Assembly: GCA_018817915.1 (NCBI GenBank)
Contig: JAHISX010000026.1
Location: 1-51,014 of the forward strand
Source: Bacillota bacterium
Lineage (GTDB): Bacteria > Bacillota_I > Bacilli_A > Acholeplasmatales > Acholeplasmataceae
DNA length: 51,014 bases
Direction of reading: 5' to 3'
The translations under genes and the position numbers were made by a program. Shown piece by piece: positions 4,267 through 36,926 of the stretch (its first letter is position 1; every line of letters starts with the position of its first letter). The notes under the pieces were generated by a model, which was not told where the DNA came from, ran no database searches, and saw nothing but the letters and a program-made list of their open reading frames with translations.

Positions 4267-4340
4267 GGCCTCATAGCCAAGTGGTAAGGCAAGGCACTGC
4301 AACTGCCTGACCATCGGTTCAAATCCGTTTGAGGCCTCCA
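4267..4340 (+). tRNA. tRNA-Cys (GCA)
   Basis: A 74-base cloverleaf. The acceptor stem is GGCCTCA/TGAGGCC and the D arm is GCC...GGC. The anticodon stem AGGCA/TGCCT encloses loop CTGCAAC, giving anticodon GCA (Cys). The T loop is TTCAAAT. The 3' CCA is encoded. It is transcribed alone, with its own promoter and terminator. Confidence 0.96.
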
Positions 4341-16083: not shown

Positions 16084-16986
16084 ATGATTAAAAAGATAAT
16101 CATTATCATACTATTAACACTAGTTCTAACTGGATGTACAAAAAAAGAAGAAATCTCAATGATCGTACCATTCGGTGGGCCAGAAATAGCTCAACTATAT
16201 CTTGAAGCCAGTGAATATTACGCAGTTGATGTCATTCAAGGACCTGATCCTTTAATTGCTGCATTTGGTTCTAATACATACGATGTCATATTTGCAGGAT
16301 CTAATTTAGGCGCAATCATGTATAACTCACAACCAGAATATATTTTGTTGGCTACGATTGTTTGGGGAAGCACTTTCTTAGTGTCTACCTCAGAGATTCC
16401 TAATATGGCAAGCCTTGAAGGTAAAGAAATTGTTGCCTTTGGACAAAACTCTACACCTGATATTATTTTGAAATATTTATTATCAGAGTTTGACGTAAAC
16501 GCTACAATCACTTATGTTGATTCTGTAGCTTCAGCATCAGCGATTTTTATCGCTGATCCAACAAAAATCGTCTTGACCTCTGAACCAGTATTAACCAATC
16601 TACTCGCAGCTGTTGAAAATGTTAATGTCCTAGACTTCCAAGCTTTATATGGTGATGTTTCAACAAGTAGTTCATATCCTCAAGCGAGTGTCTTCATTAA
16701 ATCAGAATTGAGTGATTCTAAAGTTGCTCAATTGATTACTGACTTACAAGATTCTATATACAAAGTCAATCATGATCGTGTTCAAACAGCTAATCTTGCT
16801 GTGGAACTGAATATTGGTCTATCTTACGATGTTGTTTACAATTCGATTCCTAATAATAATTTGCTTTATGTATCTGCCCAAGATGCGAAAGCAGCATTGA
16901 TTGAATATTTCAATTTACTTGCTGAAACAAACATCGCATTAATTGGTGGCATGTTACCGGACGATAACTTTTATTACGGAGCATAG
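16084..16986 (+). CDS. Lipoprotein, ABC importer substrate-binding protein (SsuA/NMT1 type)
   Basis: 300 residues with signal helix MIKKIIIIILLTLVLTGC, lipobox LTGC (Cys at about 18), then a two-lobe periplasmic-binding fold of the SsuA/TauA/ThiY superfamily (IVPFGGPEIAQLYL, GPDPLIAAFGSNTYDVIFAG). The ligand is unknown; sulfonates, pyrimidine precursors and nitrate are all possible in this superfamily. GAGG precedes the ATG at 16084, better than the in-frame ATG at 16072. It begins 41 bases after hydA with no terminator between, so it may share the hydrogenase transcript. The permease follows; no ATPase gene does. Confidence 0.85.
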   Translation: MIKKIIIIILLTLVLTGCTKKEEISMIVPFGGPEIAQLYLEASEYYAVDVIQGPDPLIAAFGSNTYDVIFAGSNLGAIMYNSQPEYILLATIVWGSTFLVSTSEIPNMASLEGKEIVAFGQNSTPDIILKYLLSEFDVNATITYVDSVASASAIFIADPTKIVLTSEPVLTNLLAAVENVNVLDFQALYGDVSTSSSYPQASVFIKSELSDSKVAQLITDLQDSIYKVNHDRVQTANLAVELNIGLSYDVVYNSIPNNNLLYVSAQDAKAALIEYFNLLAETNIALIGGMLPDDNFYYGA

Positions 16987-16988
16987 GT

Positions 16989-17723
16989 ATGAAAAAGGCA
17001 ATTTGGATGACGAGTTCAATCTTTACGTTGTTTCTCATCTGGGTGATAGCTTATGCAGTTATCGATCATCCAATCATTTTACCTTTGCCAAATCAAGTTT
17101 TTCTAGCAATTATTAGTATATTTACAACTAAGATATCTCTAACTGCGATTGGTCTTACTATTTTTAGACTTTTAATATCCATTTCATTATCAGCATTTCT
17201 TGGTATTGTATTTGGAGTGATCTCAGGATTCAAGAGTAGAATCGCATTATTTTTGAAACCCTATATTACCATTCTTAGAACCATTCCTGTTATCTCGATT
17301 GTAGTTATTTTACTCATTTTATTTGGATTGCGGTTAACACCATATTTAATTACATTCTTAATGGTCTTTCCAATCATCTATACAGGTGTTTTAGAAGGAT
17401 TTCATCAAATGGATAAAGAATTACTTGATGTCTATAAGCTGGAGCAACACGATTGGAAATTAGCGCTTAAATATATCTATTTTCCGATGATTAAAAAATA
17501 TGTACTTTTATCTTTCCTTCAATCCTTTGGTTTAGGTATAAAAGTTTTAGTGATGGCAGAATATCTAGCACAAAGCAGAAATTCAATTGGAAATGCAATC
17601 TATCTAGCTAAAATTAATATTCAATACGATTTTGTGTTTGCATGGACAATTGTTTTAATCATTTTTTCATTTATGATTGAGTTTGGAATTCACAAGTATC
17701 AATTAAAGATAAATTTAGATTAA
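16989..17723 (+). CDS. ABC importer permease (SsuC/TauC type)
   Basis: 244 residues with about six membrane helices. The ATPase-coupling loop, typically EAA...G, is seen near residues 137-160 (EGFHQMDKELLDVYKLEQHD), in the region where SsuC-type permeases contact their ATPase. It starts 2 bases after the binding-protein stop, with GGAG inside that gene. Together they would import the unknown ligand, but the ATP-binding subunit is missing from this locus; 306 bases without a gene follow. Confidence 0.88.
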   Translation: MKKAIWMTSSIFTLFLIWVIAYAVIDHPIILPLPNQVFLAIISIFTTKISLTAIGLTIFRLLISISLSAFLGIVFGVISGFKSRIALFLKPYITILRTIPVISIVVILLILFGLRLTPYLITFLMVFPIIYTGVLEGFHQMDKELLDVYKLEQHDWKLALKYIYFPMIKKYVLLSFLQSFGLGIKVLVMAEYLAQSRNSIGNAIYLAKINIQYDFVFAWTIVLIIFSFMIEFGIHKYQLKINLD

Positions 17724-17851
17724 TTCTGAATAAAATAGTCGTATCCTATGCATAGCATAGAGAATAAACGATTTCATTTGTTCAAAATTTTCTAAATCTT
17801 AATCGAACCTTAATAAAACAAAAAAAATATCAAATTTCGTATATATTTCAG

Positions 17852-17880
17852 TTGATATTTTTGATTGCATCATGTATAAT
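17852..17880 (+). promoter_or_regulatory. Promoter of the candidate small RNA
   Basis: TTGATA (17852-17857), a 17-base spacer and TATAAT (17875-17880). It is one of the few promoters here with both elements good, and no start codon follows before the terminator. Confidence 0.75.
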
Positions 17881-17886
17881 AATACT

Positions 17887-17969
17887 GTTTCTTCTACCCT
17901 TTAGTAGGAGAGACCCGTGAATTAGTCCTAATGTCTACATCCCCCCCCAAGACATTAGGACCTTTTTTT
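17887..17969 (+). ncRNA. Candidate small RNA with C-rich terminator loop
   Basis: A transcript of about 80 bases is predicted from the promoter at 17852-17880. Hairpin 1: CTTCTAC (17891-17897) with GTAGGAG (17904-17910). A single-stranded linker AGACCCGTGAATTAG follows. Hairpin 2 is a perfect 12-bp terminator, GTCCTAATGTCT (17925-17936) with AGACATTAGGAC (17950-17961), then CTTTTTTT. Its 13-base loop holds eight consecutive C. C-rich loops are the seed of several Gram-positive sRNAs that pair with Shine-Dalgarno sequences. No reading frame with a ribosome site is seen. I match it to no riboswitch class, and the next gene has its own promoter. Confidence 0.65.
17925..17969 (+). terminator. Strong intrinsic terminator (3' end of small RNA)
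   Basis: A perfect 12-bp stem, C-rich 13-base loop and T7 tract. It also insulates the downstream esterase gene from upstream transcription. Confidence 0.92.
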
Positions 17970-17986
17970 ATATTTTTGTCGCATTA

Positions 17987-17995
17987 TGATATAAT
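17987..17995 (+). promoter_or_regulatory. Extended -10 of the esterase gene
   Basis: TGATATAAT with TATAAT at 17990-17995, 35 bases before the ATG at 18030. No clear -35. Confidence 0.5.
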
Positions 17996-18029
17996 AATTA
18001 TAAAATATAAGTATTGAGGAGTATCTCAT

Positions 18030-18782
18030 ATGACAAACTTAACATGCCTTTTTGGATCACAAACTTTAGAGTTAAATACACATATCAATATCTTACTTCC
18101 AAGTGATATTAAACAGGGTGAGAAAGTTAAAGTTTTATACTTACTTCATGGTTATTTTGGAGATCATACCGATTGGATTAGATTGACTTCGATCGAACGT
18201 TATATAGAAAAATATCGTGTTGCAGTTGTCATGCCTTCAGCAAATAACAGTTATTATACCGATATGGTTTATGGGCTTAGATATTTTACATACATGACAG
18301 AAGAACTACCGAAATTTATCGAAAGAACATTTCCGATTTCATCGAAGAGAGAAGATCAGTATATTGCTGGATTATCCATGGGTGGGTACGGCGCGTTAAA
18401 GATTGCTCTATCAAATCCTGATAGATATCATAAAGCAGCAAGTCTTTCAGGTGCACTAGATTTAGAACATATTCGTAAATTGAGCTTTGGAAATGGCAGA
18501 CAATCACAATACGAAGCAACCTTTGGATTAACTTCGACTTTAAATACAAACAATGATTTGAAATATCTCATATCAAACATGACGAATAAACAAAAAGAAG
18601 CACTTGACCTCTTTATTGGTTGTGGTACTGAAGATTTCTTATATCAAGATAATATTGAGTTCATCTCATATTTAAAATCACAAAATTTAAGTTATACATA
18701 TGTTGAATCAAAAGGTGCTCATGAGTGGTCTTTTTGGGATACATATATTCAAAAGGTTATTCAATGGATGTTCCAAAAATAA
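18030..18782 (+). CDS. Alpha/beta-hydrolase esterase (EstA/FrmB-like)
   Basis: 250 residues of the esterase-D-like family. The oxyanion segment is YLLHGYFGDHTDW (near 40), the nucleophile motif GLSMGGYGA (near 115-123), an acid residue probably in CGTEDF and the catalytic His in AHEWSFWD near the C-terminus. Family members hydrolyse short acyl esters such as tributyrin or S-formylglutathione. There is no signal peptide, so it is probably cytoplasmic. GAGGAG precedes the ATG. It is a single gene facing a second, unrelated esterase across a shared terminator. Confidence 0.85.
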   Translation: MTNLTCLFGSQTLELNTHINILLPSDIKQGEKVKVLYLLHGYFGDHTDWIRLTSIERYIEKYRVAVVMPSANNSYYTDMVYGLRYFTYMTEELPKFIERTFPISSKREDQYIAGLSMGGYGALKIALSNPDRYHKAASLSGALDLEHIRKLSFGNGRQSQYEATFGLTSTLNTNNDLKYLISNMTNKQKEALDLFIGCGTEDFLYQDNIEFISYLKSQNLSYTYVESKGAHEWSFWDTYIQKVIQWMFQK

Positions 18783-18804
18783 AAAGTCCGCTTTAGGACT
18801 TTTT
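18781..18804. terminator. Bidirectional terminator between two esterase genes
   Basis: AAAAAGTCC (18781-18789) pairs with GGACTTTTT (18796-18804). The stop codon of the minus-strand gene lies in the loop. Confidence 0.85.
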
Positions 18805-19587
18805 ATTTGCAAATCTAATGAAATCAACGAATACTTTTTTCCAAGCTGATTCGTTGTGGATATCATCTGTTTCAATATAGAGCATATCCATTACATTTTT
18901 TTCTTTGAGTAAAGCATACAAATTCCTACTATTTTCTAAATAGATTTCATTAAAATTATGTGTACCTTCATCACTGCTTTCATGTCTTCCAATTGAAATA
19001 AAATATCTTTGATTTATATCTATTTTAGAATTCCTTATAAATTTAAGAAATGCATCTTCGTTAAACCAAGAAGCAAGTGAAAAAACTCCGATATGTTTAA
19101 AGACATTTGGATGTTTTACTGCTATATATGTAGAAATATAGGCACCCATTGAGCTACCTGCAAGCATGGTGTGGTTATAATCTGGTTTTGTTCTATAGAA
19201 GTGATCAATAAAAGGTTTAACTTTATTGACTACAAAATCAGCATAAACTTCTCCTAACCCACCAACTTCAATGGTTGATATTTTTTTTACGAGGGTCGAA
19301 GATTTCCAGGGAGAATACTCGAAAAATCTTTGATCAGAATTGTCTATTCCAACAACAATAAGATCATGAATTAACCCTTTTTCAACTTGGTTAGTTATCG
19401 TATCACTAATACCCCATGAAACACCACTATAAGATGTCTGATCTTCAAATAGATTTTGTCCATCATGCATGTATAGTACAGGATAAGATTTCTTAGATGT
19501 CTTGTAATCTTTTGGGAGTAAAATCCTAATGACACGCTCATTTTTAGTCGTATCGATATATAAATGTTTAATTTCTAAATTTCTCAT
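18793..19587 (-). CDS. Alpha/beta-hydrolase, Fes/IroE-like esterase
   Basis: 264 residues of the esterase superfamily that includes enterochelin esterases and YbbA-type hydrolases: PVLYMHDGQNLFED (near 36-49), nucleophile motif AGSSMGAY (near 143-150) and a His in DDIHNESAW close to the C-terminus. There is no signal peptide. The true ester substrate is unknown; no siderophore genes are nearby. AAGGAAG lies 8 bases before the ATG, and an extended -10 (TGATAAAAT, 19617-19609) is upstream on the minus strand. Confidence 0.82.
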   Translation of the reverse strand: MRNLEIKHLYIDTTKNERVIRILLPKDYKTSKKSYPVLYMHDGQNLFEDQTSYSGVSWGISDTITNQVEKGLIHDLIVVGIDNSDQRFFEYSPWKSSTLVKKISTIEVGGLGEVYADFVVNKVKPFIDHFYRTKPDYNHTMLAGSSMGAYISTYIAVKHPNVFKHIGVFSLASWFNEDAFLKFIRNSKIDINQRYFISIGRHESSDEGTHNFNEIYLENSRNLYALLKEKNVMDMLYIETDDIHNESAWKKVFVDFIRFANKKS

Positions 19588-19652
19588 TTAATCGCTTCCT
19601 TTGATTTCATTTTATCACAAAGCAAAATGACTAGCCTTCATTTTATGAAATA

Positions 19653-19661
19653 TGTTAAAAT
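19653..19661 (+). promoter_or_regulatory. Extended -10 of the aldo/keto reductase gene
   Basis: TGTTAAAAT with TAAAAT at 19656-19661, just before GGAGG and the ATG at 19686. Confidence 0.5.
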
Positions 19662-19685
19662 AGAAGTAGTACATTGGAGGTCTCT

Positions 19686-20618
19686 ATGCTAAAGACAAAA
19701 AATCAATTGAATAAATTGAAAGAAAATAGACTTGGATTTGGTTCCTGGCAATTAGGAAACACTGATTTTTGGGGGTTCATGTCTGTTGATGAAGGCATCA
19801 AATTGGTTAAGGAAGCTGTTCATAAGGGCATCCGCTTTTTTGATACTGCACCAGGATATGCTGCAGGGCTAAGCGAATCAATTATCGGATCTGCAACTAG
19901 AGATATTAGAGATCAAGTTTTTATTAGTACAAAGTTTGGCCATACTGCGGATGGTGAAACTGATTTTTCTGTATTTTCACTAAGAGAACAAATTTATGAT
20001 AGCCTAGAAAGACTTGAAACAGATTACTTGGATAGTCTTTTACTACATAATCCAAGTATGGATATCCTTGAAGGTAAAACAAGACATTTTACTGAATTAG
20101 AAAAACTCAAAAAAGAAGGTATGATTAGAGCATATGGTGTGAGCATAGACACACTTGAAGAATTTAGGTCCGTTCTTGATCATGTGAAAGTAGATATTGT
20201 TGAGATTCTATTTAATATATTTTTCCAAGATGCATCGGAGTTATTTGCTGAAGCGCATCAAAAAGGAATTGAAATCATTGTTAAAGTGCCTCTTGATTCA
20301 GGTTGGTTAACTGGTAAATATGACGAATTTTCTGAATTTGAGGGTATTCGTTCTAGATGGGATGACGAAACTATTCAAAGAAGAGCTTCACTCGTTCGTG
20401 AAGTTAAAGAGATTACACAAGCAGAAGATTTAACAAAATTTGCTATAGGATTTATACTCAGTTATCCAGAAGTATCAGTTGTCATTCCAGGTATTAAAAA
20501 TTTGGATCAACTTCGTGACCATGTAGCATATCAAAATTATGTTATGCCAAAAGAAATGAAAGAACAATTGATTCATCTATATCAATCTAAAATTAAGGAT
20601 AATCCATTATATTGGTAA
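19686..20618 (+). CDS. Aldo/keto reductase family oxidoreductase
   Basis: 310 residues forming a TIM barrel. Catalytic residues are seen as Asp and Tyr in DTAPGYAAG (near 50), Lys in STKFGH (near 82) and His in LLLHNPS (near 116); the cofactor end has VVIPGIKNLDQL. It is an NAD(P)H-dependent carbonyl reductase of unknown substrate, close to the general YdjG/IolS-like group. GGAGG (19676-19680) fixes the start at the ATG 19686; the reading frame could extend to a TTG at 19674, which would overlap the ribosome site. Monocistronic. Confidence 0.9.
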   Translation: MLKTKNQLNKLKENRLGFGSWQLGNTDFWGFMSVDEGIKLVKEAVHKGIRFFDTAPGYAAGLSESIIGSATRDIRDQVFISTKFGHTADGETDFSVFSLREQIYDSLERLETDYLDSLLLHNPSMDILEGKTRHFTELEKLKKEGMIRAYGVSIDTLEEFRSVLDHVKVDIVEILFNIFFQDASELFAEAHQKGIEIIVKVPLDSGWLTGKYDEFSEFEGIRSRWDDETIQRRASLVREVKEITQAEDLTKFAIGFILSYPEVSVVIPGIKNLDQLRDHVAYQNYVMPKEMKEQLIHLYQSKIKDNPLYW

Positions 20619-35550: not shown

Positions 35551-35979
35551 ATGATTAAAAAAGAGGATTTAAAAAAGAAACTTACTCCAATACAATTCCA
35601 TGTAACACAAGAAAATGGGACTGAAAGACCATTTGAAAATCCTTTTTGGGATTATCATGAAGCTGGTCTTTATGTTGATATCGTTTCTGGAGAACCACTT
35701 TTTACTTCTTTAGATAAGTTTGATAGCAGTTGTGGTTGGCCAAGCTTTGCAAAACCAATCGAACAGTTAACTACAAAACTTGATCGAACTTTTGGTATGC
35801 ATCGAACAGAAGTTAGAAGTAAAGTTGGGGATAGCCATTTAGGACATCTGTTCACAGATGGTCCAATTGAATTAGGCGGTTTGAGATATTGTATTAATTC
35901 AGCATCATTACGTTTTATACCTGTTCATCAATTAGAAAAAGAAGGATATCAGGCATATTTGCAATTGTTTAAAAAATAG
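35551..35979 (+). CDS. msrB: Peptide-methionine (R)-S-oxide reductase MsrB
   Basis: 142 residues. SSCGWPSF (Cys near 57, the usual resolving position), [10 protein letters not shown] and [11 protein letters not shown] (catalytic Cys near 117) define MsrB, which reduces methionine-R-sulfoxide in oxidised proteins. The four zinc cysteines found in some MsrB proteins are absent. AGGTG lies 6 bases before the ATG at 35551; a GTG at 35542 is in frame but lies on that ribosome site. The next gene follows at 8 bases, so it begins an operon with the esterase and acetyltransferase genes. Confidence 0.95.
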
Positions 35980-35987
35980 GGGGATTT

Positions 35988-36926
35988 ATGGATAAGTATG
36001 ATATTGATCATGAACTGAATATTTTAAAACCACTTAAGTTTTCTAAGTATACAAATTCAAGAAGGTTTTTTGCTAATCTTGTATTTAAAATAACCATGTT
36101 TTTTACGAAACCTAAAAAAGGGATTCGAGAAAGAAGATTTATTTTTAGAGGATACATGCATCAAAAAGTTAAATTATCTGTTTATGAGGTCAAAAGCAAG
36201 ACAACAAAATCTCCAGGTCTTCTCTATATTCATGGTGGTGGATTTCAAATCCAAGGTACACCTGTGCACGAAAGGTTAGTTGCGAATATTATCCTAGAAA
36301 CAGGACAAAAAGCTATTTATGTTGATTATCGTTTAGCGCCAAAATATCCATTTCCTACTGCACTTGAAGATTGTTATCATGCATTGTTATGGATGGTAGA
36401 ACATGCTGATTTTCTAAATATTGATATTAACGATATTTCAATTGCTGGTGATAGTGCTGGAGGCAATCTTGCTGCTGGTGTTGCACTTTTAGCAAGAGAT
36501 AGAAAAGGTCCGAAAATACACAGACAAATGTTGCTTTATCCAGTGCTCGATATTGAGCAACAGACTGAATCTATGAAACTATATCATGATGTGCCTATGT
36601 GGAATTCTATTTTAAACAAAGATATGTGGGAATTATATATGAGAAATGGTGATTATGGCATGCGAGAATATGCATCACCATCATTAGCAGATGTTTCTGG
36701 TAGCCCAGAAACATATATTGAAACTGCCGATTATGATTGTTTGCGAGATGAGGGTATTCTCTATGCGAAAAGACTTAAACAAGCTGGAGTGCCAGTGATA
36801 GAACATCAGACAAAACATACAGTTCATGGGTATGATGCAGTATTTTTTAGCAAACTCGTAAGAAATCTAACAAGAGAAAGAATTCTTTTTTTAGGAGGAA
36901 TAAATCATGAGAAAAATCAATCTTGA
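35988..36926 (+). CDS. Alpha/beta-hydrolase, hormone-sensitive-lipase-type esterase
   Basis: 312 residues. The oxyanion motif HGGGFQ (near 80) and nucleophile motif GDSAGGN (near 155) identify the HSL (family IV) esterases. Asp is in the region TADYDCLRDE and His in HTVHGYDAV. It hydrolyses short acyl or acetyl esters in the cytoplasm. GGGGGA precedes the ATG. Its last 20 bases overlap the acetyltransferase gene, so an esterase and an acyltransferase are made together; they may act on the same type of ester, which is inference. Confidence 0.9.
   Translation: MDKYDIDHELNILKPLKFSKYTNSRRFFANLVFKITMFFTKPKKGIRERRFIFRGYMHQKVKLSVYEVKSKTTKSPGLLYIHGGGFQIQGTPVHERLVANIILETGQKAIYVDYRLAPKYPFPTALEDCYHALLWMVEHADFLNIDINDISIAGDSAGGNLAAGVALLARDRKGPKIHRQMLLYPVLDIEQQTESMKLYHDVPMWNSILNKDMWELYMRNGDYGMREYASPSLADVSGSPETYIETADYDCLRDEGILYAKRLKQAGVPVIEHQTKHTVHGYDAVFFSKLVRNLTRERILFLGGINHEKNQS

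Follow-up and report, generated by a model that had tools for sequence, protein, structure and literature searches.

A conserved small RNA with a C-run terminator loop, predicted to recognise G-run Shine-Dalgarno sequences, in the wall-less genus Peloplasma

The window, a 51,014-nucleotide stretch of DNA from a genome of the genus UBA2284/Peloplasma (Acholeplasmataceae), contains the locus of a predicted small RNA of ~83 nt, here called family A (Table 1). Proof that the locus is real is chiefly comparative: it is kept in the genus, and its stem and loop are far more alike between genomes than the DNA directly downstream. Comparison of this kind shows that the RNA locus is conserved, structured and stand-alone, and that a related RNA occurs elsewhere in the bacterial family. 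We propose, with a probability of roughly 0.7, that the product is a trans-acting small RNA that lowers translation through its C-rich loop. In this mechanism the exposed C run would pair with mRNAs whose Shine-Dalgarno (SD) sequence has five or more Gs (GGGGG(G)A), and the paired SD would be hidden from the ribosome, as with LhrC and RsaE/RoxS. Peloplasma comprises wall-less bacteria of soil and sediment. The GTDB genus cluster UBA2284 was assigned to the Acholeplasmataceae by species description (PMC11122141).

The sigma-70-like promoter of the RNA matches 11 of 12 consensus bases and is the top-scoring site within 16800-19700; transcription is predicted to begin at ~17887. Folding of 17887-17972 gave -30.5 kcal/mol against -11.3 +/- 2.6 kcal/mol for shuffled sequences (z -7.4; equalled by 0/200 shuffles), and in the fold model the C8 of the terminator loop is unpaired with a probability of ~1. 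An earlier note made from the DNA letters had described a TTGATA-17-TATAAT promoter, two hairpins, a perfect 12-bp terminator and a loop of eight consecutive C, and all of these are borne out. That note also called the C run striking. C6 matches by themselves are not significant in the window, where 39/100 shuffles have as many, but of runs of seven or more C the 2.1-Mb window genome holds only ~10, three of which sit in terminator-like hairpin loops.

Table 1. Features of the family A locus, its flanking genes, a weak candidate target and the family B loci. Positions are those of the window unless a locus handle is given.
Feature	Position	Strand	Details	Basis
ABC permease gene (PF00528)	16989-17723	+	upstream, conserved neighbour	
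Promoter of the small RNA	17852-17880	+	TTGATA (17852-17857), 17-nt spacer, TATAAT (17875-17880)	
Predicted small RNA, family A	17887-17969	+	~83 nt	covariance-model match 17886-17969, 98.5 bits
Hairpin 1	17887-17914	+	11 bp, apical loop CCUUUA	fold
Linker	17915-17924	+	CCGUGAAUUA, single-stranded or weakly paired	mean identity 0.82
Terminator hairpin	17925-17961	+	perfect 12-bp stem, arms 17925-17936 and 17950-17961, 13-nt loop	
Terminator loop	17937-17949	+	ACATCCCCCCCCA (= ACAUCCCCCCCCA), C8 at 17941-17948; predicted pairing site	fold
T7 tract	17963-17969	+	intrinsic terminator	
Separate esterase promoter	17967-17995	+	TTTATA-17-TATAAT, behind the RNA terminator	
Putative esterase gene (PF00756)	18030-18782	+	downstream, conserved neighbour, own promoter, GAGGAG SD	
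G-run SD of alpha/beta-hydrolase-like gene (35988-36926)	35979-35990	+	GGGGGATTTATG, weak candidate target	
Family B loci	L143:1960-2130 (window-genome equivalent)		L056-L063, L065, L067, L068, L198-L203	

Family A is present in 18 of the 20 genus genomes, 17 of them by full-length covariance-model matches. In the remaining one (G007), two contigs (G007:C73:1 and G007:C128:7434) terminate inside the C run, probably because the assembly broke at the hairpin and homopolymer. Genome G014 carries only the related family B described below, and the covariance-model search detected neither family in G019. The run is C8 in the window and C7 in most relatives; since this variation in length breaks the reading frame, a small-protein reading was rejected and the RNA is taken to be non-coding. 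Mean pairwise identity is highest in the terminator (5' arm 0.94, loop 0.92, 3' arm 0.92), lower in the linker (0.82) and hairpin 1 (0.71), and only 0.31 directly downstream. Within the genus the -35 (TTGAYA/TTGACW) and TATAAT elements are kept, as is the CUUU of the hairpin 1 apical loop across most members, and the place of the T7 tract is taken by a T-rich tract that is interrupted in some relatives.

The structure itself is also conserved. In hairpin 1, 6/8 modelled pairs show two-sided changes, with 97.7% of cells paired among 16 sequences, and 99.5% of cells in the terminator stem are paired across the genus. Over the whole structure two-sided changes occur in 8/20 pairs and 98.8% of cells are paired, a covariation score reached by 0/500 shuffles; RNAalifold independently gives the same two helices. 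The hairpins and C loop, whose lack of conservation in relatives the earlier note had named as one refuting outcome, are retained, with covariation in hairpin 1. The element might instead do no more than terminate the upstream ABC-transporter operon strongly, with the promoter and C run there by chance, since the upstream genes are co-directional and end ~130 bases before the RNA promoter. We consider this highly improbable: conservation extends over the promoter, hairpin 1, the linker and the loop in genomes whose flanking intergenic DNA is not conserved, and hairpin 1 covaries.

The RNA lies between the ABC permease and esterase genes in all 16 named loci, as far as each contig reaches, and a hydrogenase operon is found upstream wherever the contig extends far enough. 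The esterase is only ~50-63% identical as a protein between relatives. In the window its gene converges on a second putative esterase gene (PF00756; 18793-19587, minus strand), the two ends lying 10 bases apart, and this convergent pair is retained in most relatives.

In every named locus (16/16) the RNA immediately precedes the esterase gene, in the promoter-hairpin-terminator-gene order usual for attenuators, which raises the alternative of a cis-acting leader, in which ligand binding would alter hairpin 1 so that transcription reads through the terminator. However, a TATAAT, or a version one base off, lies between the RNA terminator and the esterase start in 17/17 loci, so that the esterase has a promoter of its own. 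When the 3' arm of the terminator was blocked in the fold model, hairpin 1 alone formed (-13.4 kcal/mol); with no alternative helix there is no predicted antiterminator, and the mutually exclusive terminator and antiterminator folds of an attenuator do not appear in the model. The most conserved parts of the RNA are the terminator stem and loop, whereas an attenuator needs no fixed loop; family B, built to the same plan, precedes an unrelated gene, again one with its own promoter; and the element matches nothing in Rfam. A leader is for these reasons distinctly unlikely. The separate esterase promoter and the lack of an antiterminator favour the stand-alone reading of the earlier note over a leader, the other refuting outcome checked here, and on sequence evidence the RNA has the promoter and terminator of an independent transcript.

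The second family was first recognised as weak matches of the family A model. In both families a promoter is followed by a hairpin whose apical loop is of the CUUU type, a terminator with a C6-8 loop and then an independent promoter. Family B differs in being longer (~113-127 nt against ~83 nt), in its longer, internally interrupted hairpin 1, and in adjoining a gene for an OmpR/PhoB-type response regulator where family A adjoins the esterase. It occurs upstream of such a gene in at least three genera, lying directly 5' of it in ten genus genomes, five g15 genomes and two g8 genomes; Pfam domains were checked for the regulator of the window genome. In g9 the neighbour is an atypical regulator in one genome and a contig end in the other, while g4 has two similar RNAs at other locations. 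The window genome itself retains a promoter and hairpin at the family B position, followed by a terminator without a C run. An alignment of the terminators of the two families has two-sided changes in 8/11 pairs and 100% of cells paired, and makes shared descent of families A and B likely. Matches of the terminator model outside the Acholeplasmataceae were also considered, but the ones inspected proved to be either unremarkable terminators with a long stem or short stretches of C without shared neighbours, and we judged them to be due to chance.

A search of the window against Rfam 15 at the gathering cut-off returned only a tRNA (4267-4337). At E values up to 10, the region 17780-18060 gave six chance-level matches, all under the cut-off, and six related loci gave none; neither family A nor family B was matched, in agreement with the earlier statement that the RNA belongs to no known class. 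RsaE/RoxS was not among the matches even at E up to 10, and LhrC was absent at both the gathering and the permissive thresholds. A limited literature search likewise turned up no account of a small RNA in free-living Acholeplasmataceae.

Binding of SD sequences by unpaired C-rich motifs is common among the small RNAs of low-GC Gram-positive bacteria. LhrC1-5 of Listeria monocytogenes consist of two stem-loops and a linker, with C-rich sites in the first and terminator loops that hide the SD of a surface-protein mRNA; all five copies depend on a two-component regulator (PMC4132741). In RsaE/RoxS of Staphylococcus and Bacillus, C-rich regions pair with G-rich SD sequences (PMC4409812). Family A resembles LhrC in its two stem-loops, linker and C-rich terminator loop. 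Unlike LhrC, which has UCCC at three sites, it has one homopolymeric C6-8 run and a CUUU in the first loop; the CCC of the linker is not present in all relatives. Regulator dependence and mRNA binding, known for LhrC, are putative for family A. The likeness to RsaE/RoxS, which the earlier note had drawn, holds at the level of type: family A is an RNA of a low-GC Gram-positive bacterium with an unpaired C-rich region calculated to be able to pair with SD sequences of the G-run kind. It does not extend to homology, as no covariance-model similarity to RoxS was found, and ResDE mediates the induction of RoxS, whereas the sequence before the family A -35 showed no conserved operator. We regard family A as a new RNA family, and the evidence strongly suggests that it belongs with the C-rich SD-binding small RNAs, a functional kind already known.

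Which SD sequences the loop would recognise was assessed by calculating duplex energies for the C loop and for the anti-SD of the ribosome, the latter represented by a standard tail, which may differ from that of this genome. For an SD with six Gs the C loop reached -17.2 kcal/mol against -12.8 kcal/mol for the anti-SD, and for one with five Gs -13.9 against -10.7 kcal/mol. The order was reversed for GGAGG (-7.0 against -11.6 kcal/mol) and for the GAGGAG of the esterase gene (-4.7 against -8.1 kcal/mol), a poor partner for the loop. On these calculated energies G-run SDs should go to the RNA and ordinary ones to the ribosome. Of the GGAGG and GGGGGA sites named earlier as possible partners, the former are thus unlikely targets, as the loop is calculated to outcompete the ribosome on G-runs but not on GGAGG, and the latter are favoured.

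Summed over the 20 genus genomes, GGGGGG occurs shortly before an ATG 297 times against 137 for a reversed-pattern control, or ~2.2 times as often. Among genes with such a six-G SD in the genus, 50/63 have a product with a transmembrane or signal segment, as called by a simple hydrophobicity rule (a strongly hydrophobic segment) in a comparison made post hoc. By contrast, the membrane or secreted share is 53/151 among genes of those stretches whose SD is of the GGAGG/GAGG type (p 2.5e-9 against the six-G set), close to the background of ~35% (56/159 genes) in ~238 kb of stretches not chosen for G-runs. For five-G SDs the count is 20/31. The unselected stretches held only four genes with SDs of five or more Gs, one of them membrane. 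G-run SDs are present also in genomes of the bacterial family that lack the RNA. In seven genomes with neither RNA, 11/21 six-G genes were membrane or secreted against 8/21, which is not significant in so small a test; a direct contrast of the six-G sets from the genus and from the genomes without the RNA gave p 0.024. Given 50/63 against ~35%, the bias suggests that the predicted targets form an envelope regulon, reminiscent of LhrC, which also targets surface-protein mRNA. More speculatively, if most targets are membrane or secreted proteins, the RNA may tune the surface of the wall-less cell, and the response regulator adjoining family B may control the RNAs of both families.

None of the candidates examined is conserved as a target across the genus. 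The window contains six GGGGG sites outside the RNA, of which only the one at 35979 was found before a gene start; this hydrolase gene was rejected as a conserved target, since its G-run is present in only 3/7 orthologues examined. An extended pairing site, GGGGGATG(T), matched at unrelated genes in each genome with no gene in common. A Mrp-type antiporter was also set aside: GGGGG was present in 7/13 extracted loci, some with uncertain starts, and G019, in which neither RNA was detected, has it too. G-runs were followed by AT in 36/90 cases in the genus and 9/36 in genomes without the RNA, with no clear difference.

The C loop could alternatively bind a protein or another RNA, such as a poly-C-binding protein, or a G-rich RNA for which it would act as a sponge. 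Loop and stem are both nearly invariant, beyond what an SD-pairing loop alone would need, and the absence of a single conserved mRNA target is in keeping with such a partner. Against it, SD sites are where known RNAs with C-rich loops act in low-GC Gram-positives (PMC4132741, PMC4409812). The calculated loop energetics also prefer G-run SDs, which in this genus occur in excess before ATG and are associated with membrane proteins. We regard a partner of this kind as unlikely and prefer pairing with G-run SDs.

An extension of SD pairing, which we offer tentatively and consider doubtful, is that SD sequences carry a 'spelling code', with Peloplasma envelope mRNAs marked by GGGGG or longer runs, not GGAGG, and recognised by families A and B. 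One signal, perhaps acting through the regulator adjoining family B, could then lower the whole surface set while sparing ordinary SDs. With family A the Acholeplasmataceae gain an RNA family that is conserved, supported by its structure and related to another RNA found in several genera. The SD-pairing reading predicts that translation from G-run SDs responds to the RNA and that from GGAGG does not. Should the envelope link be true, a wall-less bacterium would co-ordinate its surface post-transcriptionally by a rule in the SD sequence.

Further C runs were noted elsewhere in the window genome. Two additional terminator-like hairpins with C7 loops are present (L070, G000:C2:29468; L073, G000:C25:49493), one of them just downstream of the response-regulator gene cluster. 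Four other C7/C8 runs (L072, L075, L077 and L083, on G000 contigs C25, C31, C57 and C70) are followed, after ~20-30 bases, by a common but diverged sequence, GGTACCGYRC...CAATTAAAA...TTTTTGAAAATC, which has no Rfam match and is perhaps a mobile or cassette-like repeat.
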